This document shows positions 3,001 through 64,000 of a DNA stretch of 64,000 bases, piece by piece. The translations under genes and the position numbers were made by a program. Each line of letters opens with the position of its first letter. Position 1 is the first letter of the stretch. This DNA comes from Undaria pinnatifida (taxonomy: Eukaryota > Sar > Phaeophyceae > Laminariales > Alariaceae). The notes below the pieces were generated by a model that was given only the letters and a program-made list of their open reading frames with translations, searched no databases and was not told where the DNA came from. The stretch is from positions 5,037,699 to 5,101,698 of the forward strand of contig JABAKD010000026.1 of assembly GCA_012845835.1 (NCBI GenBank), read 5' to 3'.

Positions 3001-6000
3001 TCTTCTTTTGGGGAGGGAATTTTCAATTTTTTCTTAAAAACGGATTCTATGCCTGAGGCAACGTTTGCTTGAGAAATTCTCAAGGAAAAGTTGGAATCGA
3101 AGCACCGAGATTCCGTGTGCTCGACACAGTTCGTTCGACCAAATCGCTGACAGGGTCGTGAAATCTAAACGCAAGGAGCTTCGTTAGGGACTCCGACCCC
3201 CCTTGGTGTACTGTGCTCACTCTACGCACGGTGATGTGTGGCGGACGCCGACCAGACTTCGGTTAAAAATACATATGGCGGCTAGCGTTTATAAAACAAA
3301 GACAAAAACTCTCGATCGCTCTCCAACGGGCAAAAAATAGAATTTTGAGCAGACTTGACGGAAGAGCAAATGACAACGCAGGCAAGCCTTGCGCTCTAGA
3401 GCATGGATCAACCTGCACTCTTCGGCGCTGTCATCTGCATTCATGGGGCCTTGTCCAGAACGAATCGGGTTGACGGTGGGGTTGTTCTATCTCAGGTCAA
3501 TCATGACTGTTGGACAACTTCACCCGAGGTTCGTTGAAAATTGACAAATTGCGCTGCCTGAAAAAAAAAAACTTTAATATTACCGGGTATATTTTATCAT
3601 TATTCCCCCACAGCGACGGTACGAAATTCTCTTCAGCGAAATACCAAACAGTTGGTAGTGTTTCATGTTCCTTATCGCGCTGTCATTAGCAATGGCCTTA
3701 AGAAGCAAAGTCCAAGTAAGGAACGGGATCGTAACGCTACTCCTGCCGCACCCTCAACGATCGTTCATTTTCCGTTGTCACAGGCCTTAGATAATAACGT
3801 TCAATTAAACAACGGGGCTGCAACTCTTCTCACGCTGCACTCTTAACGTTCGTTTTCTTTCCTTTTTTACAGGCCTTAGTAAGCAACGTCCACTTAAACA
3901 AGGGGATTGTAACCCTGCTGATGCCGCACCCTAAAGCGGCCGCTGCTCCGTCGTCGTTTTCGGGGAGTTACGTGGACGTTGTTTTGACAGCGGTGATGAA
4001 GGCTAACTCGAGCGGGGACGGTAAAGTGGCAATGGATGGGTGGCACGCGCGGTTCATGCTGGAGCGACATGGCTTGCAGGTGCAGTGTTATTGTATTTTT
4101 TGGTATTATGTTTGCCATCTGAAAATGTGCAGCATGAGTTTCAACGTCGACGACGCATACACATTCCTAAAAAGTAGAACAAAACCAAGGGAAAACATAC
4201 GAAGAAACATGCATTGAGTAATATTGTGTATGCATGTTATTTTCGCGGTAGAGCGCGGCCTTTGCATGAGGCGTGAAGATACAACGTGGCATGGCGATGG
4301 AGCTGCTCGCCCTTACATGGAATTATCTGGATACCTCATATCCAGAAGTGACATGTCTGAGATGTAGTCGAAGCGTACATCTAGTAGGTCACGATTTATA
4401 TGATCCAGATCCTACACTACTCGCGGAAGTCTTAATCTGTCGTTATGATATGTTGTACAGGATCTTGTTTGCCGATTCAACCCTAATAATAGATCATGCA
4501 GATCATGTATAGGCCAGGGATCTATCTGCCTTGAATTTGGCACAGATCATAAGATAGAGATGTTATATGTGCGATGTGTGGGTGGATGTCTCTGAGTTGC
4601 GACGGCGTGTGCGGCCAAACGATACCCGTCTCCTTCAGAGCGAACGCATCCTCCCGCAATGCTGTCGGACCTGGATGTCGTACGTTTGAAGTAATGTTCT
4701 ACGAGTAGCCCGTGCTGAATATTAGTGGGCGCCGGCAGTGGCTTTACTGGATGCTGGCGTTGTCGATCGTGCTGTGTACCCGTTGTGTCGTCAACAAGCA
4801 GCGGGCGAGAGAAGGGTGGAGGTTGGGGAAGGGGGCAGTTTTGGAGGAGGTTTTCCTGAAAGCGAGCGAAAGAGGGGTGGAGGTTGGGAAGGGGTCAATT
4901 TAATGGGTTTTGAGAATGCGATGCGCTTTCCGACGAGGTGTGTACGTCGGCTCTGCCACTTGTGGCTATCTTTTTTCTTCTGACAGCTGGTAGCCCAGGG
5001 TGGTTCCTTAATCCAGGGCATTAATCGTGTAGTTGCATATCTGCAAGGATACACCGTACGACACAAACGCCTCCGTACAGTGAATCCCCACAGACTTACC
5101 ATCGAGCGATCGACCCTCGGCTGCACACTGGTCTGCTGATTTTTGTAATTATCTCAGCTTGTGCGGGGAACGACAGCCGTCGCAATTCTTGGGCGTTTGT
5201 CTCAGATGATATTTGCCCGCAACACTCTGGCGTGAGTCATGGAATATAATATACCCCGTGTCCCCTCCTCGCTCAGTTCATACACGACGGCCTGAACAAG
5301 CTTCTCCGCTGCGGTGAAGACGCGGGTGACACGGTGGGGCCTCTCCGGTACCTCTTCCCAGAGCCATACATGCTGCCCAAGGCTCCTCTCTGGGTAAGCG
5401 TGCGGTGAACCCAACAGCAGTACCCTATCACTACTTGGGTAAAGAGAACGGTTTTTGTATTTTGACACCAGAGTCAGGAGTAACGTTTAGGGAACTGTAC
5501 ACCGCTGCACGTATATCCCGCAGGCAGTAGAGGCGTTGTGTAAAATTATTCTAAGGACGTCAGCTGTGAGTTCGACGAATTCAGGATCGATACTCATATT
5601 CGCAAGCTGCGTTGTTGGTACTTATAATATACTAGGTGGGTGGTTTTTTTCAATCAATGGGAGGGTAGGTATTGTTCGTCTATTGTGGGCTAGGGTTCGG
5701 ATGTAGCGGTGGGAGTTTGTTTCTATTGTGAGCTGCCGCAAGGTTTAGCCGTGGGAGTGTAACGGGTGGGGTCTGTGGCGTATTGCGTTCGCCCAATCGA
5801 CGAACACGTTTTGGTGTATCGGCGCTCCACCGTGCGAATGGGGCTAACGTGTGATCGGTACGACGTGTTTTCTTGATCGAACCGTGTACATGGGGCGCTG
5901 GACTCAACGAAGGTTAGGAATCCCTCAAATACATAGGGCGCGAACCGCACCACACAAGTGTCCCAACCTCCATGGCTGAAATGCATCCAGTAGCGAGGTG

Positions 6001-9000
6001 CACTGAACGTAACATAAACAAAGCACCACCAGCCCTTGCCGCTCGTCCACTGCGGGTTTGCATCGCTGTCAGGCAGCAGCTCTAGCGTTTGTTTGTTTTT
6101 TGCCGTCGGCTGGCGTCATTCAACAAATTGGGTCGAATGGGGATTCGTTCTCCTGCTGCAGAAGGTCAAAGATCCGCCGTTCGCATCTGTAACAGAAACC
6201 TGAGGAGTCGCCGCATCACTGTTCGTCCGGCCGAGCTCAATCACGGGGACTTGCTCCTCCTGCGAGCTCCTCAAGTCGCCATCCCACTCATTTTGATCAC
6301 CTCTGTCCGTATTGCCGGCGCGTTCGCTTGCTCGCAGCCATTGCCCGAGAGCGCGTTCGAGTGGGAGATGTCTTCCGCCAACGATTCGCAACGAACTGCT
6401 GTCAGGGACATCGTCACCGGGGCTCACGGCCAGGCAAGCCAAGCGTGCGGTAGCAGCATATATCAAAATCTACACTCGGGTTTCGTTTCCTCGGGCGTGT
6501 TTTTCAGTGTAGAAACAAACTATATACGTTCCGGTTGGCAGTTGAATGTGTGACTTATTTGTTCTCGACCTGCGTATTGCGGTGGACGGAAATGAGGGTG
6601 CTGTCGTTACTAGATTATTTGCCAGATGTGTCCAACCAAGTACATGAATCTCTCCTCTCCCCTCCTTGGTTTTGGGGATCCCGTTGGACAATGTTTTATT
6701 AAAAAAACGAAAAGTAACCGCCAGGACCTTCCATTCTGCGATTTGTTGTTTGTACCGTACAGCACCCAGCGTTGATGTGATATTTTCGGGACGCAGAGTG
6801 GGGCTGTATGGCTTCTCGGACAAGAAAATATAAAACAATCGTTCCACAATAGATGCTAACAGCGGGCATTGTTTGGGGTTCTGGATGGGGCGAACGGCCT
6901 CACTCGCGTTCAAGAAGTCTCAACGGTACCTTCCATGTCGGCTGGTGTAGTTGTCGGGGAAAATGTGCCCCGCTGCTTGGTGCTTGGTGCTGGCCGGATG
7001 CACGTGTTGTTGTTGTTGGTGGTGGTGGTGTTGTTGGTGGTGTTGGTGGTGTTGGTGTTGGTGTTGGTAGTGTTGATAGTGGTGATGTTGGTGATGGTGT
7101 TGATGATGTTGATGATGTTGTCGCAATAACTCATCGCCATGATCTAGCAGTCCATGGTCACAAGGCAGGCTGTATTGACTCTGCAGTAGATTCATACCCC
7201 TCAGGAAAAATGCGTCAACTTGACCGTCGTTGGCGTCGTTTGTCCACGCGCAGGTGCCGTACGTGATCTTCGGACCACCAGGGACGGGCAAGACTTGCAC
7301 GGTTATCGAAGCCATCTTGCAGCTCTTGAAGCTGAGACCGCACTGTCGAATACTGGTGAGGAGCAAAGATGGGAAGTGGCCGCACGTCCCCAAAACACCA
7401 ACACCGTTGACGGGCGTACAACCGACGTGTCCCATGAAACGTACGTGGTAGTGGTTACTGTGAGGAGTTTCGAGATGCCAAATTTGGTTGAGTAGGAAAA
7501 CATATATGTATACCAGGTATATAAAATGGCTTATAACCGACGAGAAACCATGGAGTGGCAAGAAGTTTTTTATCGTGTCGGCCTCACGATCGGATTATTG
7601 AAACTCGAGTTTCTCGAGGTTAAACTATTTGTTAGAACGCTTTTTTGTTAGAACGCTTTCTTCGAGGATTCGGCGTCCCTCGCCCCCTATGCCCCTCTCG
7701 CCTTGAACGCGTACGGGGGCCGAGAGAGACAAGCGAGAAGTAGGCACGATGTTGGGTTTTAAACGACATTCTCGAGCTTTTCTGTGATTATTGATAGGGA
7801 GATGTTGGGCAAATACAACATGGAATAACTTTTCAAAATGGTCGTATTACCCGAACGGCAGTCCCAACAAAGCACTTTTCCTTGCCGCTTGGAAGCGTTT
7901 GAACCTACCAGGTACGCTATTGCGTGTTGTTTTACGATATATACTCGAGGGCCTCCTGAAACCACTGTTGTTGACCCTAGCGTTTGCCAGGTAAGTAGTA
8001 AGCAACTCCCCTGCACAGCCAACTCATGGCGTGGAGTGCGTGAATACGCTCCTGGAAGATCGATCTGCTGTAAAGTACTGCGGTACCGGGTATGTAGTCC
8101 CGGTACGAGTATTGCGATTTCCGCGAGATCCCGCTGTATATATTTGTTGGTTTTAGGATCTTCAGCCTGGATCTGCGTACGTAGTAGGATTTGTATTTTA
8201 AAAATGATCCCGTCCATTGTGTGTTTAATTAAGTTCAGTGCATTGTATGAATTTACGAGCATGCCGAATACTTCGTACGAGTACAGCTTCAGAAACAAGC
8301 TACACCCGGTTACAGTAGCTGCACCCCGAGCTCGAGCGCTGTACGAGTACGAGCACGAGCACATTTTTCGAGTATGTACTAGTATGAATACGCACGCTCT
8401 GCTGTGCGACACTGCTGTGCTACTGTACCTCTGTGTATGATATTGTACGAGTATCATGTTGATTTTCTTGGGTTTTGTTTGAGATTTGTTTTCGAATGTT
8501 ACCAAACCCGGATCTTGCATTTTTAATATGAAAAAACATCCCGTTTTCTTACCTTGGGTGCATTGACGAGCACGAGTATTAATTAATCATGAATATACGA
8601 ATACGAGAGTCAGCTCCAGAAACCAGCCCGGCACGAGCACGTACGAGTTGTACGAGTACGAGTGCATACAAGTATTGCGCACAGTGGTATGATACGTAGT
8701 GGCTCGCGGGTACGTACGGTGCTGCTGCGTAAAATTGCGCAACGAGCCGTTCTACTCGTATGGCATTTTACCCCGTCGCGAGCAGCAGCTCGGACTCGCA
8801 CAGAAGTAACGTACAAATCTTCATGTCGCAGAGACGGTGGCCTACATGGATGTCGATGATATTTTGCGAGCTCAAGCGCTGGTCGTTGCTATGTCTGCTA
8901 CCTGACGACAAACTACGACCGTTTGTTGTTCTGTTGGGTGTTGGACGCACGCTATCTACAAAAAGTGAGTACAATCTACAACAGCAAGCAGCAGTGTAAT

Positions 9001-12000
9001 AACCGACGAGTTGATTGACGAAGGCAGCAACGACGTGTCGCGCCTGAAACGCCGGCAGCTTGTCTCTCTGCGTTCAGACTACTTCGTACATGTAATCGGG
9101 GTAGAGAGGCTTGGATCAAGCAAGAGAAGCAAGCTCAGTGCGCACCTCTCCATGGCTAGGTGGAAAAAATGCCGCAATCAGCAATCAGCCGGCTTACTGG
9201 CCACGGATGCTTGATCGAGTCGAAATAGTAGCCGACTGCCCGCACATCTCTTAGGGGCGGGACTAGAGAGTCAGTCGGTGTGGGCTCGGATTTCGCGTAA
9301 ACAAGACGGCTACTTCGAGTCACACGTATATATTTACCGGCAGTCAAGGTACATGTTATACATACGACCTGGTATTTTTTTGCCTGAAGATTCGATCAAA
9401 TCTGAAGCTCGGAATCGGATTCGCGTAAGAAATCGTAGTAAGTCAGCCGTCTACTATCAGCCTAGACTATTAGGCTGTGTTGAGGTATTGGCATTACTTT
9501 AATACATTCTATACGAACTATAGGTTTATGTGTGTAGTTGCGTTGTTTGCTGCATCTATCTTTTGATTCGAACAAATCGAATTGCTACTCTGCCCTACCT
9601 AAAGCGTGGGTGCTGAATGCCGACATCCATTTCGAGCCCTTGTATAGCATGAAACCAACGAACGTCACCACCCAGGGCCAATCCAACCCAAGAGATATCA
9701 GCTAAAATGGCCAAAAAGCGGTCGAAACCTATTTATTCTTGGGTTGAATTGTGGCCTCGGGTCAGACGCTCGTTGGTTTCTTATTATTGTCATATGTTTT
9801 CCTACGAAACCCACCTTAATATGTGGCAAACGCCTTGGTATTAGTACGCGTCGGTCACGGCGTGTGTTTCCCGGAATGCCGTCGGTCGCACCCATTGGCT
9901 GCCGCCATGATGCGTCTCTGATGAGGGGGAGGGGTGCGGCAGAGACAAGCAACTCGGAGACAAAGCGCCATTCGCATCCTGCGCTCTCTCGCTGGCGTCC
10001 CGAAGTATACCATGTCTAGTTTTTTTTGTCGTTTCCCCAGACGAACCGCGCGGCTACTGCTGCGGTAGCGCCGCGATGGTGCTCGCGAGCCTGGTGTGCA
10101 AGTGGTTGTTGGTGCGGCTTTTTGGTGCATGTGATGTCCTCAGTTCTCTGGCACGTCCTAGTTTCGACGTTTCACCGTAATAGTGATTCACCACCATCTG
10201 TCCACCCCTCTGCGCGCGCACGTGACAGGCTTGTGGACCTTCCGATACGGCTGCGGATGTGATCTGCGAGAGACTGTCGAGGCACTTGTCGACAGACAGG
10301 CTCGTCCGTATCAATTGGTGGCAGAGGCTGGCGGCGTCTGTGGACCCGAAGATTCTACCCTACTGCCCACAGGTTCGGACAGATTTATATGTTGTATGAA
10401 GCAACCATAACATCAGCCGCCGGTGTAAAGTCAACTGTTACTAGATGCTGTACAGTAGAGGACGGTACCCTCTGTGGCAATTTAAACTTCACCGGCATGA
10501 TATGCCGTGACGGTTTTACTGTGCGCCGCATTGATTCGCGGGTGAAGCTGCGCTCGTTTGCAGTGCCACGCTGAATGGATTGTTGTGCTGTTTACGTTTC
10601 AATCGAAAGCGTTGGTTGCCACACGTCGCTCGTCTGTTATGCGCTGTCACGTGCTTGGATCGGTTTGTTTTCGCTGCGCCATCGTTGTTGTTTTGATGGC
10701 CTTTTCCGCGGACTGTGGGCTTGTTTTTATGACCCGCGCCGAATAGTGGCACAACACCGATGCACCTTGGACTGAAACATGTATTCGATATAGTTACACC
10801 CCAACGTGTCTTGACACTTTAAATTCTTCCAAAATATTATACCACAGCTTTTTAAGTAGAAACAATGTGGGTGCGGCTCCAAAGGGGTTCATACAATGCA
10901 CAATTAGTGCACACAATGCGTGCAGCATCGACCTGCTTCCGCCGAATCGAGCATATGCTGTGCTGTCTCAACTTGGTCTTCTTTCCCCTCTCTCTTACCT
11001 CGTCATGTCCCTATTGTCTCTCGTCATGCCTCGTTGTGCCCTCATGGGGTCCCTTTTGTCTGTCATCGCGCCTCCGTAATCCGTCATTATGGCCCTCGTT
11101 GCTCTGCGTGTCTCCCTCTTATTTGCTCATGTGGCCTTTTCCCCTCGTCGTACCTCCCTCTTGCTTCCAGATTGTGGCCCTGTTGCCTCATCGTACCTCC
11201 CCCTTCTTTCCCCTGGTGTCCTTTTTCCTCGTTGTTCCTCTCTCTTGGTTCCTGATCGTGGCCCTCTTTCCTTGTCATGCTTGCCTCTTGCTGTCGTCGG
11301 CCAGGACACAAACCGCGGGATGTTCGTCCCGCCTGCGTCGGTGCCGCAGCAGGTCGTCGTCTGCACGTGTGGCACGGCGGGGGTGCTCAACGTGCTCGGC
11401 CTGGGCAAGGTCAGGCATACCTTAGACGTATACGGTGGCGGGCACCTATTAAGAAATAGGGTATTAAGAAAGACAGGATGACGTTTACAGGAATAAGAAA
11501 ATCTGGAAGCCTGTGTACTAAAGTTACTGTAGAACACATCCTCTCCCAAATAAGAAACCCAGCCTACGTCCGTATTTTTGATTCTTAATAGGTGTCCTGT
11601 GCTATACTGGGACATGCACACCACACACCCGTAGCACGCGCGATCGAAACATCACTCGCAGCTTGCAAAAACGAGTTTAGATGGAAACCTTAATATTAAA
11701 TATCCGGTTTATTTTGAGTGTTGTATGGGAACGTTAGCGGCAGAAGCACCATCACCGCTGCCACTCTCCCGTTTCCTCGCGGCCCCAAAGGGGCTTTCTT
11801 CGCAAATTCGTGACATGTACATGATCTCCGTCTGTGCATCTCCCGTCCCGCCCAATGTCAGGCGGACTTCACGCACGTGTTCATCGACGAATGCTCGCAG
11901 GCCATGGAGACGGAACTGTTGGTGCCTCTTTCCTATGCGAGCGGCGCCCAGATTATCCTGTGCGGTGATCCCAGACAGGTGAGGCGATTAGGTTTCTCAG

Positions 12001-15000
12001 GACGAGATAGACTCGTAGCCGGTCACTGGGTGGAGTACGGCACTGTCGCGTATTTTTGTTTCGCCCGCCGTGTGTTCGCCCCGTACTGTAGTTTCACTCC
12101 CAGCGGGACACTGTGCACGACACTGACGGGGGGCGGGGGGTCTTTCATTAGCCTCGTGTCCACCCTGTACGGTACTTGTTGGTCTTGTTTGGCGTATCGA
12201 GCGCCTCTGCTTGAGCTCTTGGCGAAAAACACTTTCGACGTTGTACGCCCCACCAGGAAGAATCACTGTTACAACAGTAAAGGTCCCTGTATAGTTTCGG
12301 TTGAGTAGTGCCGGTTGTCCGCTAGAATGCCCGTAGAATCGTTTTGACACGGAACAACCAATAGTGGCAGTATGCGGAGTAGTACCGGTTTCCGCTATAG
12401 TGCGAGTATTCCCCGCTGGTACATACCGGCACTATAAAGGGGCCACTACTGTGCTTCCGACGATGACGGGAGACGGCAGTTTAAGCCCGTGACGAACGGC
12501 GGCCTAGACCTAATATGCTTGTTTCAATGTGGGAGCTCGAGAACGTGTGGCTGACGACGTCTAAAACTGCCTCCTCCTCACATATATAGTACTGGACACC
12601 TACAGAGAAACATAAATAGTGAACGAGGGTGGGTTTCTTAATTGGAAGAGGATGCGTTTTACACTAATCGAAATAAAACGGCTATATAATTTCTTATATT
12701 CCGGTAAATACCAGCCTGATTTTCTTCTTTCCCTGTTTCTTATTACTCTATGTTTCCTGTACTGTGTTTGGTTGCTGATGTGCTGTTGATAGCTCAGCCG
12801 TCACCCTCTGACTTTTCGCCGGTCGTTGATGTGCTGTGGATAGCTCAGCCGTCACCCTCTGACTTTTCGCCGGTCGTTGCGTCTCACGTGTGCCTTTTTC
12901 CGGCCGTTCTGTTGTTCAATGTGTTAGCTTGGTGCTGCCGTCCGGTGCCCCTCGGCAAGAGCGCTTGGTCTCCACATTTCTCTGCAGGTGGGACGCGGTA
13001 GATCAACCTAGGACATCTACAATTAATTATAACCCTTGCCAGTATACTTCGAAATTCGTTTATTCCTATCGATAGTCGTTTCTTGTCCGTACTGTTGTAC
13101 GGTCGATCATCTATCTCTGTGCTTTCTCCAGCTCGGGTGCATGCTTCTTGCCTCCCCGCCTTTTGACTCCAAGATTACTACTGCTAAAACTATCCTACAC
13201 TACTTCAATCCGTAGGTGTTGTGATTCCAGGGGTTAATGTAATTTTGCTCCCCCTTTTGAGGAGAATGGCGTTGTAGGTTGCATCGGATTGATAGGTGGT
13301 GGCCTGGCTGTACTCCTGACACAACATCTCCGCTGCCGGTTACATATTATTTTTTGGTATTTTGGTGTTGGCGTCGTAGCTAGCTAGCTCGTGAGTCGTC
13401 GCTAGGTTACGGTAACGATGGCATACTGTATACCAGGTACCTGGTAATGCACTGTGACCTCTCCATCGCTCATCATCACGCCATCGTGTGGGCGAGACTC
13501 CAAATATCGGGACCACCTGCACTAGGCTGGCTCTAGAACTCGCATCGAGCGTCGCCAAGACCGATATTTTGGTCGACCGCCATTAGCATGCTTACCATAC
13601 GACGGCATGACACTTAAACTTACTCAGTTGTAGTACGAAGCACCCTTTCCTGAGGGGTGCCAACTAAATGTTTCGTTGCCTCCCGAGGCCCCCTTAGGGT
13701 TGGCCGCCTGAGGATTGCCTCTGGCACGACCGCGGACGCATGCCTTGCCTCCAGCAGCAACTCGTGTGTTTCCTGCTGCCTGCATAGTTTTTCATCACCA
13801 GAAGTATCGGCTTTCAGTGCTAAGTGAACCAACTTAATGCCCTCATGTTTGACACGGTAGGCTTAAGGCTGAAATTGCTGCAGAAGTTATTAACTCTACT
13901 TTCAACTGTTGTGTTCCCAAGAAGGTGGGTGCAGTTCTAAAGGGTTGAACATGCTGTCTGCTTTTCTCACCCACTCGTGCCTCCTAGGAGCGTTTAATGG
14001 GGCAGGACATGTACTCCAAGTACGCTCAGGCACCGAAAGCGCTAACGACCCGGAGCGGTGCTGAAGCAGCAGGAGTACGGTACGGTTACTACGTCAATCT
14101 GTGATCACCATAAATGCAGTCCCGGAGCATGATGTTATAAGCACTTGCGCGAGTAGGCTGCAAATATACGCCAATGTCGGTGCCACTAACCCTGGTGCCG
14201 TTTGTAGGTCAGGTGGTGCGTCATTGAAATTGCATACTTTTCGCCACCTTCGGCCCTCCTACCGCCACGCAGGACCGAAGCATCAATCGACTGAGGTTGC
14301 TGCCACCCCTATATGGTGGCAAGGCCCGGGGAAAATCTGCTCACGCTGCGACAGCATGCCAGCATTCTGTGTTGTTTACCCCGACCAGATCCCTCGTGCC
14401 TCGGTAACTTTCAACATCGCGCGATGAGTGTACGGTCTTCTCGTTCAAGTGATTCGCGAAGCATGCCATGTGGGTAGATAATGACTGTGTCGTGCCTTCC
14501 GCCCATTGCCATGCTGTGCACCCCTCGCCCTTTGCATGCGCGCCATAGTAGTACGTGCGGCAGACAGCAGGAGCAGTATGCACTCGTCATATAATTGATG
14601 TTGTGACCCATCGCTTTCTTCATGCACGCTTTTTCAGGTGTATGACGCAGCTTCTCAACAACTATCGCGCGCACGAGGTATTGCTGACGCTGCCCAGCGC
14701 GATGTTCTACGGTGGGGGTCTCGTGCGAAGTGCCGATCGTTCGCAGACCGACAGCATGCTGACTTGGGAGGAACTGCCGAAGAACATACCCTTCCCGATG
14801 GTGTTTTACGGCGTTCAGGTAGGCCAAGTTTTGCTTCTTCGCCTCGTCTTCTCCGCGTCAACGTTTCCTTCTGTATAGTATATTCTGTATATGCACTGTA
14901 TTTGACGCATGGTACGGTCACCTTAATTTTCTACGACCCCTCACTTGGGCAGCGGTATATTATTTGTAATATTACTAATGTCACTAATAGTACTATACCT

Positions 15001-28900: not shown

Positions 28901-30620
28901 ATGGCTTTTCTGGGAGTTGTGAAGTCAGTTGCGAGATCGGAGGAACTCAAACTCGCTCAAATAAGGCCATGATGAGTTGAATTGGCCACGTCGACGCCTC
29001 CTAGACTCCATGTACCTGCCTTTAGATGCCTAACTACAGTACAGGGCACCTGATAAGGAACATAACTACTGACCCAGGCTGGGTTTATTATGTGGGAGAG
29101 GGTGCGTTCTACATACCGGCTCCCTGACTTCTTACTGTTTGTGAAGTTCTCAGAGTTTCTTATGTAGTGCCGTCCTGTACTGTTTGCTGTGTTACCGTTC
29201 GTCAACTGTGCTGCATCAACGTTCATCAATAATGCGGCGTAACCGTTCGTCAATCATGCGGCGTAACCGTTCGTCTATTATGCTGCGTTACCGTTCTTCA
29301 ACCATGGTGCGTTACCGTTAGCCTATTTTGCGGTGTTACCATTGGCTAATTATGTCGCATTGCCGTTCCTCAAACTATGTTACCGTTCAACAACAAGGTG
29401 CGGGTCTACCCGCCGGAAAACGCGAGGTGGAAATGCTGACGCACGCTCGCGCGAAGCGTCTCTTGGAGGCTTCTCTTCCCCCTTTCACAGACGAAGCTTC
29501 GCTCGCGTTACGGAAGAGTCTTATGGAGAAGCAGGAGCTGACGGAACTTGGCTTGAGGGAGCGGGAATTGACCAGGCAAGCTCTCGGATACAGTTCTTAG
29601 ATATTTTGACAAAGCTCCAGGCTTTGGCGGCATGAAATCTCAGAGCCGAGTTATGTTTTAGGCCTATTACTAGCTGAGACGCATGCTGCGGCAGGGGTCC
29701 CTGTATTTATTCCTTAGGCTCTTCATAGAAGGAGCTCTATACGCGTCCAAACACTGACTTATATGTCAATGTGCGCTTGCCACGGTTATTTGAGTTTACC
29801 ACAGCCCCAAGCTCTAGCGGCATCCAATGGTAGAGCCGAAATTTCGTCCTAGCTGAGCTTTAGCCCTCCGTCTACCTTTTGGGCTTGAAGTTCCTTTACG
29901 TTTGGTTAAAAGTTTGAGTTGGCGATCGCCATAATGGGTAGCAGTCGATACCAAAATACTGTACTTCGAAGCAGGTAGTCAACGTATGCTCATGTAGGGG
30001 TCGATAGTCGGTTGGGCGGGCGATCACCCACACGGTACAAAAGCAAGGATGACTAACCGCCTCAACACCCAATTACAAGACATATATAAAGGTGCAACGC
30101 TTCGCTGTCCGATTGAAATTCCGTGTTAAGAACAACTGGCCGCCTACAGCTCCAATTACGATACATAAATTCAAACAAAAAAAGACTTCGACGATTCGTT
30201 ATAACTCCGTATTGAGGATAACTGGCGTCCGGCAGACCTAATTTTGAAACATACAATAAGTAGTACACGGTTGGATTCCTCATCGTATCCCCACGTTGAG
30301 GATTATTGCCCGCCTACAGACCCAACTACAAATCATAAGTTCGAACAAAACTCTTGGCTCTCTCATTGAAACCCCGTGTTCTTAGGGCTCGAGACGAGAG
30401 GCTCAAGGTTCTGAAGACGGCTATGCGAGAGCGCGACCATGGAGCTGAATTTCTCGCACAACAGCGCATAGAGGTAATAAACAAAACTGCGCGATTACTA
30501 GCCTTGCGAACAACCCATAGTTTATCACGCCATGTGATAATGATGGTGATGATGATGATGTTGATGATGATGACGATGATGATGATGATGATGATGATGA
30601 CGATGACGATGATGACGATG

Positions 30621-30652
<32 letters not shown>

Positions 30653-33600
30653 GTTGATGACGATGACGATGATGATGATGATGATGATGGATGATGGATG
30701 ATGATGGATGATGATGGATGATAATGGATGACGATGATGGATGTTGGATGATGATGATGATAATACTGCTGTTGATGATAATGGTGATGATGATGATAAT
30801 GATGATGATGGATGAGTGATGATGAGGGGCTAGGGGTTAGGGTTAGGGTTGGGGTTTGGGTGAGGTTCTGAAGAAGCCCATGCGAGAACGGGACCGGAGA
30901 GCTGAATTCCTTGCACAACAGCGCATAGAGGTAAAAACTGCACGATGGCTAGGCCTGTTCGTAGACAACCCTTGCTTCACCATGTGGTGGGACGACGATG
31001 ATAATAATGATGATTATACTGTCGGACGTCGTTGATGTTGTTCTCCCATGAAGATTAAGGGTTAGGGGTTAGGGTTAGGATCTGAAGACGTTTGAGCGAG
31101 AATACGACCACGGAGCCGAACTTTTTGCATCACAGCGCATAGTAGGTAAAAAGTGCGCATAGTAGGTAAAAAGTGCACGATGATGAGGCCTGTGTACAAT
31201 CCATGTTACATTATGACATGCAGCAAAAGACGATTTCTCTTACTTTTCTTCTTTTTTTCTGGGAATATTAAGGAGGAATCGACTGTTAAGACTCTCAAGG
31301 GGTGCAATAACCCTAACATGGGAAACATAATAACAGTAATGGACGATTTTCTCCATGAGGAATCGATGCCGAAGCTCATGCTGCATATTGGCAGATGACG
31401 AAAAATAGTGACAAAAGTGGTAGAACGGTTGGGGTCGCAACACGTATACGACTTAGGTATCATGGTAATGTCGAAAGGATGACCGAAAAAAAAATGAAGG
31501 AGACCATCTAGTAGTAATCGTTGCGAAACTCTGTTCTCGCCGAAGGTAACAAGGAAAGTGATCGTGAGGTGTGGGCTTTTGGCGTCGTTGCCAGCAGCAA
31601 TACCGTTTCGGACATACCAGTAGAAAACAATTTTCGCTGCTTTCCGTGTGATTCGTGTTCCCTGTGAGGTGTGTCTCCCCCAAATCCTAAAAACAACTGC
31701 TGAAACGTTGTTGGGCGCCAGGCCTAGTTGGAAGCTTGTGTTGAACGGTGTTGCCGTGCGACCCTAAATCATTACGACTGTAAGTTGGCCAACAAGTCAC
31801 CGACTGGATATTAGTTGGCTAGGCACTACAGCTGTCTTGTAATACATGACGGTCGGTTGTACGGTTGTACTTGCGTGCTGTTATTTGCGGTTATTTGCGG
31901 TTATTGTGTGCGGTTATTTTGCATCTGACTGGCGCGCTTGTGGCTCGACACGTGCTATTTGATAGTGAAAAACTAAGACAGCTAATTGGATTCTACATCG
32001 CCGCCCAACTAACACCTAGCCGTAAAGCCAACTAATAATGACATACTCACAGCCCTACCAATCTGATCCCGATCACGGACACAGACATGCCTTTTGCCTA
32101 TTGCCTACATGCCCAACGACGCGCGCTACGATAGAGGTGCACCACTTTTTTCCCAACACTACCCCTCACTTTAGGAGGTCAAGGCATGTCCTTCTTAACC
32201 CAAAAACCGATTTGGAAACAAAAAAAAGAAAAACTGCTTTATCGCGGATGAAAAATCGCATGGTATAGAAGCGAGAATCATGCAAGAAAAAAAAAAAAGT
32301 CGTATTTCCGGCGATTTGGGGTTAAGGAGCCCTGTCTTTCAAAAGCCACTCCATTTCTTCAGACGGAAAAAAGTACTTACTGCCTCTACCGTAGGACGGG
32401 TGTACCAATAAACGTAGCAACGTGTTGTTCGTCACTCCGCTCGCGGAGGCCGTTGCTGCGTTTACGAACAAACCTATGGTTTTTTGCGGTTTCCTATGTA
32501 CGATACCGTGTTGGCTGGCCTCTCCAGGCACTTCGTCAGGCGAAGGTAGAAGAGTGCGAGAAAACGATCGGCGCCATCCAGCAGAGGAGAATCAAGGTGC
32601 TGCGTAAGCTTACTAAGGCTAGGAAGGCCATGCCCGGTCAAGAAGACGAACAGGCTAGACGCCGCGACATAATCAAGGTGGGTCCCTACCGTCGTTTTGT
32701 CTGTTTCTGAGAGGCGCAATATTCAAATGGAACGGGAGTCAAATTGAGGAGAAACGAGTTATCGCTTATGGTGCGACTGCACGGACGGAAGCCATGTACC
32801 AGGGCCGAACGAGTGCCTAAGGACAAAGGCCACAGAAGGGGGGGGGTACTCATTTCATATATAAACGTAGTCTTAATATAGACCCTCGCGTCCCTACAAT
32901 GCCGGGACGGAACACGTCGGGTTTTCACCGACCAGGCAGACATTGCTTGCAGCAAGCGCAAAGCGCCGTGAGGTGTTTGGTGAGTCGAATGAAATTTGAG
33001 CTGCAATCTACTAAGAACCACTTGTGAGGCGGTGCGCGCTTTCTTGCATATAAATGACAGCTTCGAATGAATTAATTTGTTTCCTGGTTGTGACCACTTC
33101 CAGAGACAGCAATGGGATGCTATTGAATTGCCTCGTGGGCGCCCTACCATGTGCACACCACGTGATGCCACCCTCCTTACTTTTATGGCTCGCGCCAGTC
33201 GCTACACCGTACCAAGGTAATTCATTGCGTTCTTATGCGTTCTGGTTTCGGTTCGGTTCGTGGTGTGCGCCGCCCCGACGGAACCGTTGGTTTCGCTGTG
33301 CCGACAAAATGCGTCTAGATCGCCGATGAGCGAGCTACAGGGCCCCACGTGCGAGTGGCTTATACATGTTCGGTGGTGAAAATATGAGGGTTACCCCTCC
33401 TACCGGTGTCTTTGCTCTATTGTGCCTGTTGTGCCGGTTGTGTGACCACCATTACGGCCTCCAGCACGCTTTCGGGCAAGATAGCGTGTCGTCCAACTCT
33501 ATCGCACGGTATCCGCCACTACATTGGGGTCGCTTTGGCAGACCACACAAACATGACAGTGGTCATTGAAAGCGATTCGCTGTAATCTCTGACGCGGACC

Positions 33601-42626: not shown

Positions 42627-42959
42627 CCGGTCGCCCCGGTGGCGTATCAGGTTATCCTCGAGCCTGGTATAGGTCAGTTTCGTGAGTTCGAGCCCCGCCG
42701 AGTGCATACTCGTATAAATTCGTTGGGACTTTTTCTTGTGCACAAATTGACCTGCGGAAAGCGCGAGGGCGTGAGTTAGCAACACTCGATGAAAAATCGA
42801 CGAGCAGTGGGATTGCTGAACCCTATGCGCGATATAAAATTGAAGGCAAGAACCGGGGGGGAGAAGGGACGACACCTGTGACCACAGCTTGTCCAGAAGC
42901 TGGAAAGTAAAAGTGTGCGAAGAAAAAAAGAAAAAAAAGAAAAAAAAGAAATAAAAAAG
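42627..42959 (+). mobile_element. tRNA-derived SINE, copy 1
   Basis: The head resembles a tRNA: box A-like TGGCGTATCAGG (42640-42651) and box B-like GAGTTCGAGCCCCGC (about 42683) 43 bp apart, so it could be read by RNA polymerase III. The body shares CGAAAGCG-like bases, GCTGAACCCTATGCGC and GGGGGGAGAAGGG with copy 2, and the element ends in an A-rich AAAAAGAAAA tract (42925-42957). The tRNA part is degenerate and is not a working tRNA gene. Confidence 0.7.
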
Positions 42960-43277
42960 TCAAGGTATGATACAAGGTGTGATGTGTCCGTCACAAGCGA
43001 TATGCTAAAGTATTCGACGAGGTGTGATGTGTTCGTCACTATTAATAGTGACATGCTACGGAGGTATTCAATAAGGTGTGACGTGCTCGACAATAGCGAT
43101 ATGACAACAGAAGGAGGCAGCAATCTTGCGCGTTAACCACTTTGTGTCATAACGCAGCTTGCATATAAGCAACGCACGCTACAAGTATATTAGCACCACA
43201 CACTACATTACCCTTTTAAAACTACACCTACGTTTTGCCAACAAACTACTTGAAATTAATGTTGATTTTTTTTCTCA

Positions 43278-43594
43278 GTTCCCGGCGGTTCAATGGTAAG
43301 CCGCGTGATAATCGAGGTCAATGTCCTAGGTTCGGACCCCGCAGGGGTCTCTTTCCTACACATTGACAAGCCGAAAGCGTGCGAGAGCGCGAGTTGGCGG
43401 AATTCGATGCTAATCGACGAGCTAAAAAAAAATGAAAAAATTGGGAATGCTGAACCCTATGCGCTACAAAAATGAAGGCATGTACTAGGGGGGAGAAGGG
43501 TAGATACCTATGGCCACGGCTTGTGGCTTGTGTCCAGAAGATCGCTGAGGGTAAAACCTCGTACTACAGAGTAGTTGAACCGGGAAAAAAAAAG
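43278..43594 (+). mobile_element. tRNA-derived SINE, copy 2
   Basis: Head CCCGGCGGTTCAATGGTAAG with box B GGTTCGGACCCC (43329-43340), then AAGCGTGCGAGAGCGCGAG, GCTGAACCCTATGCGC and GGGGGGAGAAGGG, ending in an A-rich run (43585-43594). It aligns with copy 1 over the whole length with indels. Same orientation, about 320 bp after copy 1. Confidence 0.7.
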
Positions 43595-44179: not shown

Positions 44180-44522
44180 ACAGGTGCGAACCGAAAGAAT
44201 AGCCGTTGTTGGGACGGGCTAGATGACATGATGACAAACGCGAAAGCGGCTTTGCGCGGTGATTTTCGTCATCAAGCCCTCTCTAACCTAACGTCCCTTA
44301 CCCGTTTGACCCGCTGCTTTTTCTAATCCTTTTGTGCCGCTATCAAAAGCGCAATAGTGGTGAACCGAAATAACAGCCTACGTTAGCGCCGGATAGATGC
44401 CTTGTTGACAAACGCGAAAGCGGTTTTTGTGCGGTGATCTGCTGCATGGAATCCTCTCTAACCTATAGTCCCACGCCCTCTTTAACGTTGACATGCCGCT
44501 TTTTCTTCGCGCGGCGAACTGT
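44180..44522 (+). repeat. 174-bp tandem duplication
   Basis: GAACCGAAA at 44188 and 44362, ACAAACGCGAAAGCGG and TGCG-GGTGAT, TCTCTAACCTA, and GCTTTTTCT near the end recur in order with a period of about 174 bp. Copy 1 is preceded by TTGCACAG and has an open frame of about 45 codons; copy 2 does not keep it clearly. It may be another exon echo, but no gene is established. Confidence 0.65.
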
Positions 44523-44995
44523 TTATGTCCTATAATAGGACCGCCCGACGACTATCGCGCTGAGGAGCGCTGAAAATTGCGGCCGGAATCGTTTCAATGG
44601 AGGTAGCGGCGGGCCAAGAAAGCGGATAACTCTACGATGTATTGATGTAGATATTGTGCGCAGAGTGATAGAGATCGCACTGCTTCCTAAGGGTTTTTCT
44701 TTTTCGTCGATGTGGCAAGCTCGCACCGACGCTCAAGCCTGTTTGCGATATCGGGAACACCTCTACTATGTATAGCACGATGGATAGTTTGGTGCATAGC
44801 ATAGTGTGCAGCATGATGTGTATGGCATGGTGTATAGCATAGCGTGCATCTCGCGGTATGTGCCGTGATGTATTGCATGATGTATATAATGTTCAGCAGC
44901 TACTGTCCAAGGACACGGAAATATCTAGAAGCTATTCAAAGCGTCAGAAGCAGCACAGAGCAGTTGTCTCGGAGTCCCTCGGGGCGGCGTGAGTA

Positions 44996-45180
44996 CAGCA
45001 CAGGACACCTATCGTAGTGAAAAACGGGGTAATAATAAAGGGAAGTTGATATTTATAGGACTGTAAAAACCCGGGAGCCGTTATACTGAAGGTAATGTAT
45101 AACGCACCCTCTTCCCAAATAAGAAACCCCAGCCTGGGTAATTTTTTCTGCTTCTTGTCATTAACAGGTGCCCTGTGGTG
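44996..45180 (+). mobile_element. MITE-like family B, copy at 45 kb
   Basis: Starts CAGCACAGGACACCTATCG and ends TAACAGGTGCCCTGTGGTG, giving inverted ends. The inner CACCCTCTTCCCAAATAAGA and AACCCCAGCCTGGG match the 11447 copy. Confidence 0.7.
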
Positions 45181-45432
45181 TACGACGACAGGCATCCGAT
45201 GTAGCACGCCCCTTTTCCGTTGAGGATGTTGGTCGGCAATGGCGCGGTCCATATTGTCCTGGTTGGCGCAGTTTACGGTGATAGTTTTTGTAATACAGGG
45301 CTTTTCACGGGTCATGGCCCGACCCTGCGGGTCGGGTTGGGAAGTGTTCGAAATCCTGCGGGTCGGCTCGGGTTGGACTAGGAAAGTTCGGATCTCATGC
45401 GTCGGGTGGGGTCACCATTACCCGACTCGGCC

Positions 45433-45690
45433 CTGACCCGACCCGACCCGACCCGACCTGACCCGACCCGACCCGACCCGACCCGACCCGACCCGACCCG
45501 ACCCGACCCGACCCGACCCGACCCGACCCGACCCGACCCGACCCGACCCGACCCGACCCGACCCGACCCGACCCGACCCGACCCGACCCGACCCGACCCG
45601 ACCCGACCCGACCCGACCCGACCCGACCCGACCCGACCCGACCCGACCCGACCCGACCCGACCCGACCCGACCCGACCCGACCCAACCCG
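45433..45690 (+). repeat. (ACCCG)n pentanucleotide array
   Basis: About 50 nearly perfect ACCCG units with one ACCTG and one ACCCA variant. Asp/Pro/Thr/Arg or Gly/Ser/Arg/Val repeat frames on both strands are artefacts. It lies about 280 bp past the stop of the ubiquitin-like gene. Confidence 0.97.
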
Positions 45691-45970
45691 AGCAGTGAAG
45701 AGTCGTGGTATTTTTCTTAATTCCAACCACAGGGTCTCCTCTCTGTTGATGATGTCACTTGAACCATACCAGCATTTAATTCGCGTAGTCGCTACGGCGT
45801 CTACTCTCCACTCCATCCATATCAGACTTTACTCCTCATTTTGACTCCAAACATAGCAGCATTTACTCACAATCTTTTACTTCAACCAGAGCAGCATTTA
45901 CTCAAAATTTTCACTACAACCAAAGCAGCACATACTCGCGATTGTCACTATAGCCGTACGACAGCAGCGT

Positions 45971-50176
<4,206 letters not shown>

Positions 50177-50580
50177 CTGCATTTCAGAAAAAAAACGAAA
50201 AACAGCCAACCAATGGTGTGTTAGATCGATGGCAAGCTGGGAGTAGATTCAGAATGGCATAGAAGGGAGGGAGATTTTGTGCGTAGGTTTCCTTTCGTTT
50301 CCGAGGTTTTCTTCTTTCGGGCATGTTTCATGACTGATCAACTTTGCACTTCGTCGGATGGCAAGCACAAGAGTAATAGTGAAGTAATACTTCGTCCGGA
50401 TGATAGGTTTCCCTTTTCTTTGTTTTCGTCTTAGGGTTTCGTTTTTTTTTTTCCCTTTGCGGTTTTTCTGAAGAGAAAAATTTTCAATGATATTTAGGTC
50501 GACGGCAACCCGTAAGCAGGTACGAAACAAGACTTATTTATTCAGACTTCGTGCATGGGTTATTTTTTTTTGTGAGTTTT

Positions 50581-50680
50581 GTGCGTCGGAGTTGGTGACC
50601 GCCCTCGCCGCCTTCCACTGTGCGGCAATGGAATGTGACTAGCTTGTGCGGCATTTGAATGCGTCACTTGAATAAAGGAG
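50581..50680 (-). pseudogene. Echo of the 5' end of exon A of the ubiquitin-like gene
   Basis: GTGCGTCGGAGTTG at 50581 repeats 50097, 484 bp away. On the minus strand the echo reads VTHSNAAQASHIPLPHSGRR, against VRHIPLPHK for the true exon start at 50176, with a small insertion. The echo keeps GTGA after CAA but lacks a clean AG acceptor. Flanking intron bases (ATGATATTTAG(A/G)TCGACGGC at 50488 and 50697) are also repeated, so the region was duplicated more than once. Confidence 0.65.
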
Positions 50681-52878: not shown

Positions 52879-52894
52879 CCGTGAGTGCTGCTGA

Positions 52895-54520
52895 TCGTGG
52901 TACTCCTCCAAAGCCTGCTCCAGGATCACGTTTGCCCCGCCTTACGCGCGTACGTCGAACGGGGTGGGGCAAGGTTGGGGTCATCGAGCGAAACGCGCCA
53001 TGTATGCCTTCCATACGCCGACCACTATTATGCGTTATTACTGTGCTTCGAAGTATTAGTCATCGAGCGAAACGCGCCATGTATGCCTTCCATACGCCGA
53101 CCACTATTATGCGTTATTACTGTGCTTCGAAGTATTAAATAGTACGAAACACAGCCTTTTCTTTACAAGGGTACTTTTTCTGTCATCTTGGATATCCGCC
53201 AGGGCTTAGTCTAAGATCGCTCTTGCCTCATCATACACCGAATGACGTCGAACAAGGTGGGACAAGGGGTGGGTTGTTGGTGATGTGGCATCTACCCACT
53301 AACCTGCTCAGTCAACAGGGGTCATCGACTGAGCGCGCCATGTCTTAGATGCCCGGTTATGATCAACACATTTACATATTAAGAGTACGAAATCGATTTT
53401 GTTTCACGCAAGGGCACCATTTTTGCCGCCTTCGCGGCTTTTCCGCCAGGGCCTGCTCCGCGATCACGTTTGCCCCGTCTCGGAACAAGGTGGGGGACAA
53501 GGTGTAGGCTGTTGGCCATGTATCACTAACAACATTGATGAAGTCTACTTGAGTCAACACGGCCCATCGAGTGAGCGCGTCATGCCTTCGACGCCAGGAT
53601 ATGAACAATTTTGTCACCAGTATGAAAAGAAAACCTTTTCTTGTGTGTCGTCCGAATTCCATTGTCATGATCGTTGTTCTGACTCGGGAGATAGAAACAT
53701 GTATTCCCTCGGCCAGATACACCTGTCGCCGCTTCCTGTTACCTCCTGCGTATTTTGCCCACGCATTAACTGTATCCCTATCTTCCTGACATGACACCGC
53801 CGGGTTCCTAACCATTGCCGCCGACAGTGGTCTTGAGTGACCAAGCCTCCGAATGGTACCCTACCATTCGACTCCTCCGATCTAACAAGTACCCAAGAAA
53901 ATAGAACAACCGTATAAAAAAACAAGGAGATAAAAAAAAACACGGAATCCCTGCTACTCATAGAGCTCTTCCCCCCCACGCCCTCGTCGAAATACAAAAG
54001 GGGAGACGGGGCGGAGGCGAAAAGAATAACACTATTAGTCTAATACCTTCTGGCTTGGCTGACCATCCCAGCGACTAACTCACACCTACTCACGTTCCCA
54101 GCAACAACCCCTGGCTCACTCGGGTTCGGCGTGGATTTGCTGATCTTCACGTGATGTCTTCTCCTAGACCGACCAAATAAAAAATTTCTGCTCCTAGTGT
54201 TCGCTTTTAAGCCCTCATTCTGACGGCGATGCCCTATACAATACAAACATGCCTAGGTATCTCCAACAATCAACGAACCCTTTGGCGGTTATTCCGTATG
54301 CCGAAACTGCATGTATGGACAAACCTATCCTGTTTTTACATGTTGATTTTTCTTCCCTCGTGATACTCCTCCAGGGTTTACTCCAAAATCACGTTTGCCC
54401 GACCTCGGGACAAGGTGGGGGACAACGTCTAGGCTGTTGGCTACGTAGAACTACCCACCAGCCTGTTCATCCAACACCGGTCATCGACTGAGCACGCATG
54501 GTCTCCGATGCCCGGGTAAG
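52895..54520. repeat. Four-copy array of a coding-like fragment
   Basis: A block of about 160 bp recurs at about 52905-53060, 53195-53360, 53445-53600 and 54360-54520. The core is the CTGCTCC-GATCACGTTTGCCCC type, then AACAAGGTGGG and later TCATCGA-TGAGCGCGCCATG. On the minus strand the cores read GANVILEQALEEYHDQQ, GANVIAEQALAEKPRRRQ and RANVILE, then a stop and TLEEYHEG, which look like diverged copies of a helical exon. On the plus strand three of four cores are also open (GLLRDHVCPVSEQ type). Which strand, and which copy if any, is functional cannot be settled by eye. Confidence 0.6.
52981..53137 (+). repeat. Perfect 79-bp tandem duplication
   Basis: TCATCGAGCGAAACGCGCCA and the following bases up to GCTTCGAAGTATTA are identical at 52981 and 53060. 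It falls inside the first unit of the four-copy array and must be very recent. Confidence 0.95.
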
Positions 54521-55200: not shown

Positions 55201-55261
55201 CTGGGGAGGTGGTCAGAGTTGTGACATACAACACAACACAACACAACACAACACAGTACAT

Positions 55262-61461: not shown

Positions 61462-61619
61462 TGTTATAGGCTCGAAACGGTTGAAATGGGGTGCTCAACA
61501 GACTGCACGCCCTTTTTAATTGGCCAACACCTGTACCCTCATACCGCCTGGACCGGATCCCATTAGGCACACTGCTCCTACCAGGTACGTACTAGTACTA
61601 GGTGCGCAACTGCAGACGG

Positions 61620-61652
61620 TTGGGGTTAGGGTTAGGGCTAGGCTTAGGTTAG
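61620..61652 (+). repeat. Short telomere-like GGGTTA tract
   Basis: GGGGTTAGGGTTAGGGCTAG and following GGCTTAGGTTAG, two perfect units plus degenerate ones. Confidence 0.7.
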
Positions 61653-61980
61653 CGTTAGAATGGCGTATGGACTGCAGCTAATAGCTGTAGTCCCTGGACT
61701 CTAACCATTTACTCTCCCGAAAGGGACCCTAGGTTTACAACAAAGCTTGTTGAAAATGAAGCAAGACCTAACGAAAAGCGCAAGGCCTTTTGTTGGTAAA
61801 GCAAACCTCTTCGTAGCGATAGTGTCACAAAACAACGCGACAAGAGACGATGTGCCAAGAAACTGCTGAGCCCCCGTGCGGCCAACGACCCTGCCCAAGC
61901 TTAACGAACCAACAATTTTCAGTTTCATGGGTGACCATTTGCCACTTGAAAAAAGGGTCTTCAAGGTCTGCACATTACAT

Positions 61981-62106
61981 GCAGCCAATAGCACTTAGCC
62001 CTGCTCATGTGTAAAATCAACAACTTGGAACTATCACATTGCTGCGACCAATAGCACTTAGCCCTGCTCATGTACGAAGTATTAAAATCGACAACTTGGA
62101 ACTCTC
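61981..62106 (+). repeat. 62-bp tandem duplication with a 10-bp insertion
   Basis: CCAATAGCACTTAGCCCTGC and TCATGT, then AAAATC(A/G)ACAACTTGGAA recur at 61985 and 62048. The second copy carries an extra ACGAAGTATT. It is recent. Confidence 0.9.
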
Positions 62107-63414
62107 GGTGCTATTTTTAGTGACTAGGGCCACCCTTCCACAGCGTTGAACCCGCCATCATTCCAGCATCTCCTCGCCCCACCCACCGGAGCCTGCCCCT
62201 GAAGCCTGTCAGACATGCAAAAACTATTGCTCACTGATTCCTAATCGTTTGTCCTCAAACGCATGGGCGAAGTTGCAAGGGAGTTTGCCGACGTCGTCAA
62301 ATTTAATCGAGCGGTTGACCCTGCTTGCTCAAAATGTTCTGGCAAGCCTCCAAAAACCTAGCCTGGTGCCGGCGGTTTTGGTGCAGGGGTACGATAGACA
62401 ACAAGTGCGATGCCGTCATCATGGCGATGTCTTGGGGCAGAGCGTCCTTGTAGTGTTCCCGCACGAAAGGCCAGAAGACGCTCTGCGATGAGAGGGGTGA
62501 ACAGGATCGGGCGGCAACGGTAAGATCAGAAGGGGTTCTGTATTGAGGAGAGAGGAAACGATTGGGGACCAACGGTTTATTTTTGTTGTATTGATACCAG
62601 CTATGGATAGGTACGATTGGCCTGGAGATACTTTCGACACTGCCTTCTGCATGAGTGTAATGAATAGGATTGAGCGCGGCAGGCATATGCTACTAAAGAT
62701 ATGGTAGAGGTACACTCTTTTTTTTCCGGGGCTCTTAACCTGATAAAAATGATGAAAATCACTATAATATACCCCTCGGAGGCAAAAACATACTCTGAGA
62801 AAAACAATAGCGCACGTCGATGAACAAGCTAACGGCCTTGGTAAACTAGCAAAAAATCGTGAAAACTATACACTGGCATTCCCACGATTTTTGTATTCAC
62901 ATGGGTTAAGGAGCTCCGTCGTCCAGAAAATATTCCGCCCCAAAAAACTCTGCTGTACCTTTGTCGTAGCACCCGACACCAACAAACAAGAACAAAAAAA
63001 CGGCTACGGGCAACTGGATGTGGTGTCACGTCGACCATTGGCCCGGGAGCGAGCTGAGTGCGGTATTCTTGACACGGTCTTGCGGACGGTGGAGTAATTC
63101 GACCCAACGTTTCTCGTCCGGGAAACGTGACGTTCAATCAAGGTGGGTGAATGCGTCACGCAGTTTCAGTTTCCGAACAAAATTCGCTCACTCTTGAGTT
63201 TTCTTCCGGTGATGGGGTGGAGCAAATCGGGCTCACTTAATACTGATTTGATGGGTTTTCGGGTTAAATCTGAGTTAGCTGAATTTCACTAACCCCGGCC
63301 GCGATGATTGTGTACGGGGCGGACGCATCATCAACATTTTTTGTACGCTCTGTTGTTGATAGAACCTCCCTCTGATATGGAAATTTAATCGATATTTTTA
63401 CCCCCCCCCCAACA

Positions 63415-63482
63415 TGAATGCCTGGTCGGCGAGAAACTTTACGTGCTCCGGCCCGGCATTGTAGAGATGCGAGGGTCGATAG
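63415..63482 (+). repeat. Dispersed repeat D, copy 3
   Basis: ATGCCTGGTCGGCGAGAAAC, TTTACGTGCTCC, GGCCCGGCATTGTAGAGATG, CGAGGGTC. Same family as 32880 and 36131. Confidence 0.65.
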
Positions 63483-63753
63483 CCTTAAGACTACAAACAG
63501 TAGGGGCCCCTCCCTCAGTAAGGCAGAGGTGTTGTATACACTAGTGCTATAGAGAGCAATACGACCGCGTTATATGGGGAAGCTGCCTTATTCACTCCAG
63601 GTTATGAGTGTAATTACCTATTAATAGTCGCTCGAAGCGATTTTGACCACCTTATATCGGGATATCGCCTTACTAACCCTTACTCAGACCGCCTTATTGG
63701 GGGACCCCTACCCTACCCTACCCTACTGTACGTCTGTGCATGAAATGCGTACA

Positions 63754-63816
63754 CCTAATCGCACAACATTGCGATGACTGTCGGCCGTGGTCCTTGTCCA
63801 AGCTCACGAAATTGTA
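63754..63816 (-). pseudogene. Echo of the right-edge exon
   Basis: On the minus strand it reads YNFVSLDKDHGRQSSQCCAI, against YDFIILDKDLDKTATEMLRD in the exon at 63931-64000. Offset is 183 bp (GTCCTTGTCCAA at 63790 and 63973). No donor is kept at its end. Confidence 0.65.
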
Positions 63817-63930
63817 GCCTCATAATATCGAAATGGCCTTGACAATAATAGTGCTCTATGTCGAAATATACGTTTTGTTGCGCTGAAACAATAGAAAAAC
63901 AAACATATATGAAAAAAAATGATTAAATAC

Positions 63931-64000
63931 CTCCTCCAAATCGCGTAACATCTCGGTGGCTGTCTTGTCGAGGTCCTTGTCCAAAATGATGAAATCATAG
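63931..64000 (-). CDS. Coding exon cut by the right window edge, unknown
   Basis: On the minus strand the last 70 bases read YDFIILDKDLDKTATEMLRD then LEE, ending in phase 0 at donor GTATTT. The peptide is acidic and helical. Its 3' neighbours would lie at lower coordinates and may include the 55200-54768 exons, but no intermediate exon was recognised, so linking them is speculation. The existence of an echo at 63816-63754 that keeps the reading frame supports a coding origin. Confidence 0.45.

Follow-up and report, generated by a model that had tools for sequence, protein, structure and literature searches.

We analysed a 64,000-nucleotide stretch of the genome of the brown alga Undaria pinnatifida (GenBank assembly GCA_012845835.1, contig JABAKD010000026.1, forward-strand positions 5,037,699 to 5,101,698; hereafter the window). 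A first-pass annotation had recognised a helicase gene, a CFAP91 gene, a ubiquitin-like (UBL) gene and an exon at the right edge, and had described part of five of their exons, with the splice-site flank, as repeated in adjoining introns. We refer to these intronic copies as exon echoes. Pfam ubiquitin matched the open reading frame (ORF) containing UBL exon A (45974-47275, 5.4e-10), and exon C had no convincing Pfam match by itself. ORF 30339-30698 matched Pfam CFAP91 under the 27-bit cut-off (E 0.0062, 17 bits), and ORF 37953-38303 matched CFAP91 chains at 1.7e-11. The ORF of the helicase exon (3798-4214) had no Pfam match, and the exon takes its name from the first-pass annotation; helicase domains occurred further along, with AAA_11 in 11814-12305 and AAA_12 in 18836-19243.

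Self-comparison of the window recovered a copy in the adjoining intron for all five exons, with approximately 70-80% DNA identity and offsets of 89-671 bp (Table 1). The offsets first reported were nearly exact, but they vary from locus to locus and are not fixed, and the copies are partial, each comprising one exon end and its flank and not a whole exon. The helicase case recurs at 3694, 3783 and 3872 with an 89-bp period (71-78% identity), and the CFAP91 case at 30406, 30863 and 31077 (offsets 457, 213-214 and 671). The right-edge pair came from a separate BLAST list and was absent from the first window self-comparison. Splice-site flanks were visible beside the window cases on reading the sequence. 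All five exons were sided in the same manner, with 5' parts copied upstream (helicase, UBL-A and UBL-C) and 3' parts copied downstream (CFAP91 and right-edge exon). The second CFAP91 echo contains a further tandem duplication of its splice-site region (20 bp x 2.1, 31135-31176, 100%). Telomere-like GGGTTAGGG stretches lie at 30830-30860 and 31058-31079, exactly where the two CFAP91 echoes start. A dispersed element carrying the helicase exon was considered and rejected, since a search that scored only the best candidates placed the exon and its echoes at a single genomic location and gave no sign of such an element.

Table 1 Exons, echoes and other local duplications in the window.
Feature	Position	Strand	Basis and remarks
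Functional exon, named helicase exon 3 in the first-pass annotation	3873..4079	+	Open frame, CAG/GCC start, CAG/GT end; 3' splice site CAG 3870-3872, 5' splice site after 4079
Echo 1 of helicase exon start with 3' splice-site flank, upstream of exon	3783..3846	+	Self-comparison; 89-bp tandem unit
Echo 2 of helicase exon start	3694..3757	+	Self-comparison; 178 bp from exon copy, splice AG lost
CFAP91 exon	30386..30473	+	Putative functional copy, as the sole copy with the exon's 5' part
Downstream echo of CFAP91 exon 3' part, with 5' splice site and ~80 bp of intron	30863..31014	+	73% identity to 30406-30559
Second downstream echo of CFAP91 exon 3' part	31077..31193	+	Self-comparison
UBL gene exon A	45974..47239	-	Start 47239, preceded by CAG; end given is the end of the open frame
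Echo of exon A start with CAG splice site, upstream	47416..47471	-	77% identity to 47198-47253, offset 218
UBL gene exon C, functional	49823..50176	-	Open frame between CAG and CAG/GTGAGG
Echo of exon C start, upstream intron	50579..50665	-	74% identity to 50095-50172, offset 484
Right-edge exon, 3' end; runs past window	63931..64000	-	Open frame ending GAG/GTATTT
Echo of right-edge exon 3' end, downstream	63740..63812	-	73% identity to 63922-63995, offset 182
51-bp tandem duplication	12774..12879	.	96-98% identity
Direct local duplication outside recognised exons	42742..43524	.	71% over 170 bp, offset 616
Direct local duplication outside recognised exons	44188..44472	.	77% over 111 bp, offset 174
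79-bp exact tandem duplication outside recognised exons, young event	52980..53137	.	100% identity, 0 bp overlap beyond period

The density of local copies was assessed in 65 chunks of 3 kb drawn from the window, five arbitrary 10-kb stretches and 29 kinesin loci, with arrays masked. At a threshold of 40 bits, 69 local matches were direct, compared to 6 inverted non-palindromic and 8 palindromic ones, and matches to other chunks, over twice the comparison area, numbered 5 on the plus and 10 on the minus strand. Around 59 sampled exons, whose kinesin loci are common to the chunk set, direct copies outnumbered inverted copies by 109 to 5. The copies are thus nearly all direct and nearby, and the echoes are not chance. 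Direct copies are undercounted in the chunk, pair-list and exon-locus counts, apparently because self-BLAST loses copies at offsets of about 50 bp or less. Copy density was uneven; local copies made up 5% of the window, and across the five 10-kb stretches their share of bases ranged from 0 to 19%. Short tandem duplication is possibly dense in this genome. Within the window, direct duplications also occurred away from the exons that were recognised, not every exon there being annotated (42742/43358, 44188/44362, 52980/53059, 53250/53483/54410 and 61971/62035; self-comparison).

The 59 exons were taken from a genome domain search and comprised 29 of 30 fetched kinesin loci (of 130 matches; L003 was dropped as letter-identical to L002) and the 30 best of 57 CCT chaperonin matches. 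With a threshold of 40 bits and a maximum offset of 1.2 kb, a same-strand partial copy was found for 10/59 exons and an inverted copy for 0/59. Length-matched non-exon segments from the same loci, which are non-independent and may hold other exons, as some loci overlap or share a gene, had same-strand copies in 117/724 and inverted copies in 7/724. Exons and non-exon segments were therefore copied equally (10/59 vs 117/724, Fisher p = 0.85), with the two families differing in opposite directions (kinesin exons 6/29 vs non-exon 41/340; CCT 4/30 vs 76/384). At the protein level, 6/59 exons matched their own flank, compared to 0/1740 pairs of an exon with a flank from the other family. The chunk, exon and cross-pair counts support the genome-wide duplication process proposed in the first-pass annotation. 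Its suggested comparison of exons with their own and with other introns gave the anticipated excess, but non-exon DNA showed the same rate as exons. Local duplication is genome-wide and showed no preference for exons. Because pairs of exon and echo are expected to fade more slowly, the equal visible rate even suggests that fewer duplications touch exons, in line with selection.

The first-pass annotation had put forward a duplication mechanism linked to splice junctions, or to transcription and splicing, and the five window cases and the sampled echoes do all lie at an exon end. However, exon (match) ends were covered as often as other positions (13/118 vs 189/2008, p = 0.52; exon middles 4/59), the same process operated at the same rate in non-exon DNA, and similarity extended into intronic sequence beyond the 95th percentile of controls in 14/26 copies mapped at junctions. 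The lack of an excess at exon ends led us to reject a splice-linked mechanism, which we find scarcely credible.

The side on which echoes lie was strict. In a survey at 33 bits with up to six copies per exon, 12/59 exons had echoes, and exon 5' parts were copied upstream and 3' parts downstream at 14/14 exon ends in these exons, including L030, where the match starts in the intron. The count was 12/12 without L026 and L054, whose exon ends could not be fixed. Finer mapping with hand-set junctions covered 16 exon ends (12 sampled and four window exons, CFAP91 being left out), of which L052 gave no copy at threshold, and all 26 copies at the remaining 15 ends were correctly sided. Over 40 nt on each side of the junction, identity was 80% on the exon side and 65% on the intron side, compared to 55-56% in unrelated controls, and the exon side was more similar in 25/26 copies (Wilcoxon p 3e-5). 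Several echoes can accompany one exon, with three at L045 and seven at L060. At the latter (1867-2376), the largest exon-end array seen, a CCT-family exon precedes seven copies of its terminal 28-80 bp, together with the splice-site flank.

One young event was visible alongside its empty site among paralogues. Five light-harvesting paralogues, with 89-93% pairwise identity except L071-L075 (81%), differ by insertions and deletions, and nine length-difference blocks, one nested in another, were queried among them. Three blocks were derived from adjoining DNA, and all were tandem extras in L074: a 124-bp tandem duplication (123-bp block) for which the remaining four paralogues have an empty site, a 27-bp extra, and a 25-bp extra whose block is also present in L075. 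Among pairs with at least 95% identity and at least 28 bp, 6/9 were tandem. Ten simple young tandem pairs, hand-picked from 22 rows in 340 kb, overlapped by 0-4 bp beyond the period. The rows dropped were eight in arrays or a 42-bp minisatellite (L025, L036 at 4416, three rows in L043, and window 29226, 39969 and 60888), L004/L007 (a single place seen twice, overlapping by 8 bp), L075 at 954 (by 7 bp) and L027 at 980 (by 4 bp). Such near-blunt joints would suit the filling-in of staggered breaks and subsequent end joining, as described in PMC8355091, and replication slippage is a compatible second route.

Taken together, the echoes are very probably remnants of ordinary short tandem duplications, of tens to several hundred bp, that occur throughout the genome. 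Where such a duplication covers a splice junction, function is possible only for the copy that is still continuous with the remainder of the exon. This copy would stay functional, and its partner would remain as intronic sequence, lying upstream if the junction is a 3' splice site and downstream if it is a 5' splice site, and would decay by substitution and deletion. With selection preserving the functional copy, a pair of exon and echo would diverge approximately half as fast as an intron-intron pair, such that old duplications would be visible mainly over their exon part and resemble exon copies. By our own arithmetic, the gap between exon and intron sides, with the control floor removed, is close to that between one frozen plus one drifting copy and two drifting copies. 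Spaced old pairs probably began in tandem and then lost part of one copy.

Several observations weigh against this explanation. Among the nine length-difference blocks, six did not derive from neighbouring DNA by tandem copying. These were extras of 354 bp in L071, 182 bp in L073 and 1181 bp in L075, a 122-bp segment that L072 alone lacks, an 834-bp block, and a 44-bp L071 piece nested in it; the 834-bp and 1181-bp blocks hold local repeats of their own. Spacing was seen in 3/9 pairs with at least 95% identity and in 11/13 pairs with at least 90% identity in the BLAST list, which covered offsets up to 2 kb and overstates spacing because several short-offset tandem pairs are missing from it. 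Three of the joint rows that were set aside overlap by 7-8 bp. The 26 mapped copies come from 15 ends and were mostly found via their exon part, and are thus non-independent and subject to ascertainment bias, while sidedness could in principle arise by selection against wrong-sided copies.

The young spaced pairs either would need quick follow-up deletions or are better suited by a contribution from repair-mediated copy and paste (Pace et al. 2009), in which synthesis-dependent strand annealing fills a break with sequence from close by, leaving donor and copy spaced from the start. The distances between copies, examined up to 2 kb, fall within the donor-acceptor distance of approximately 5 kb for such repair. 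They also agree with the range given in PMC2671141 (proximal duplications with a mean of 162 bp and up to 619 bp; 753/1,136 duplicons less than 3 kb apart). However, copying into breaks should place roughly half of exon copies on the wrong side, and none was found among the 14 exon ends or the five window exons. Copies were also nearly all direct (109 vs 5), whereas the ACSBG2 exon copy illustrated in that source is inverted, and the three locally derived paralogue extras were all tandem. We consider copy and paste an unlikely origin of the echoes.

We also assessed whether echoes could be maintained as alternative splice sites or regulated decoys. A canonical splice dinucleotide was kept in 19/26 copies (the UBL-C and right-edge reference junctions were set 1-2 nt off), 17/26 copies had no frameshift or stop, and some exons have several copies, as at L060 and L045. 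However, approximately 80% identity alone predicts that about two-thirds of dinucleotides would be kept, by our own arithmetic. Differences by codon position were 0.127, 0.185 and 0.245, such that position 2 exceeded position 1 and did not show the low value of a coding copy, and 9/26 copies carried a frameshift or stop. Coding constraint on the 26 copies thus had no support, their codon-position spread not being that of a constrained copy, and retention for function appears very unlikely. The peptide similarity of echoes needs no selection on the copy, because the real exon is the conserved partner. The idea that echoes supply cassette exons is likewise doubtful, since the mapped echoes lie at one exon end each and crossing one junction brings only one native splice site. 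Judged from sequence, single-junction echoes are candidate alternative splice sites and would not by themselves be cassette exons. Of the duplications in the window, the 79-bp exact repeat alone could stem from collapsed haplotypes or misassembly, but echoes are 71-89% identical to their exons, which is too divergent for alleles, and were present at 12 sampled loci distributed over seven contigs; we give an assembly artefact almost no credence.

Other repeats were observed in the sequences analysed. The 354-bp insertion in L071 (2184-2537), which four paralogues lack and which has no local origin, is perhaps a small transposon. In the window, an inverted repeat pair (1505-1741 and 2644-2874; 237 bp, 89% identity, approximately 0.9 kb apart) may be a mobile-element pair or an inverted duplication, and related dispersed elements of approximately 80-170 bp with 69-80% identity occur in both orientations at 11447-11618, 12585-12765, 29035-29114 and 44995-45194. 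Arrays with a 42-bp unit at 39746-40171 and 40708-41064 are 94% alike over 351 bp, and apparently the same unit is present on the opposite strand in L036 near 4416, which may indicate a dispersed minisatellite. A 54-copy ACCCG array lies at 45420-45691. G+C content of the window was 0.45-0.54 per 2 kb, near the 50.14% published for an Undaria pinnatifida assembly (PMC7058681). The genome also encodes fucoxanthin-chlorophyll proteins (L037 matched chain FCP17 of 9ygv with 409.6 bits over 199 residues), as expected of an ochrophyte and most likely of a brown alga.

Exon echoes act as a dating lamp, with the conserved exon leaving duplications recognisable when intronic ones are already lost to view, and counts of exon-to-own-intron matches with a non-exon control provide a simple measure of local duplication rate for any intron-rich genome. 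Tentatively, and with more doubt than confidence, we suggest that short tandem duplication proceeds at an unusually high rate in this brown-algal lineage. Such duplication would be a main source of its long introns, would place a decoy splice site near approximately 1 in 5-6 conserved exons, and would form a lasting reservoir for alternative splice sites and intron gain. If brown algae are exceptional in this respect, it would bear on the origin of long introns and the source of new splice sites.

The doublets of Thomas et al. 2004 and the close direct repeats of Achaz et al. 2001 are reportedly short, local, same-strand duplicates in several eukaryotes, the latter said to be based on exact or nearly exact matches. 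Most pairs observed here differ in being older and seen through conserved exons. The doublet survey likewise used exact or nearly exact matches, as discussed in PMC2671141. The first-pass annotation knew of no named system for the echoes, but these doublets, repair-mediated duplications (RDs) and tandem duplication across intron-exon boundaries were already described, and the echoes are best filed as an instance of known small local tandem duplication. Pace et al. 2009 (PMC2671141) foresaw that RDs would land duplicated exons with splice sites in adjacent introns. RDs resemble the echoes as short local duplications within a few kb that take in exons, partial exons and splice sites; they were described in vertebrates, whereas the brown-algal copies are almost all direct and sided as a tandem origin requires. 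For brown algae, literature listings on such copies and on partial exon duplication showed no description of them.

Intron gain in the potato RdRp gene involved a duplication crossing an intron-exon boundary, as a result of which part of the exon came to lie within the intron (Ma et al. 2016, PMC4974935), and tandem duplications across such boundaries are also reported in Drosophila (Lehmann et al. 2010, PMC2891723). The echoes differ in that no new intron was shown here, and in that they involve many genes and copies that are old and decaying. Schimmel et al. 2021 (PMC8355091) attribute small tandem duplications to fill-in by CST / Pol alpha-primase at breaks followed by end joining. The near-blunt joints of our ten selected pairs are similar, though that enzymology was shown in human and mouse cells. 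Finally, exon shuffling of leucine-rich repeat (LRR) exons in brown algal ROCO genes, as outlined by Teng et al. 2024 (PMC11378527), likewise yields repeated exons within brown algal genes, but those are whole in-phase 72-bp exons serving as protein repeats, whereas the echoes are partial and apparently unconstrained copies.

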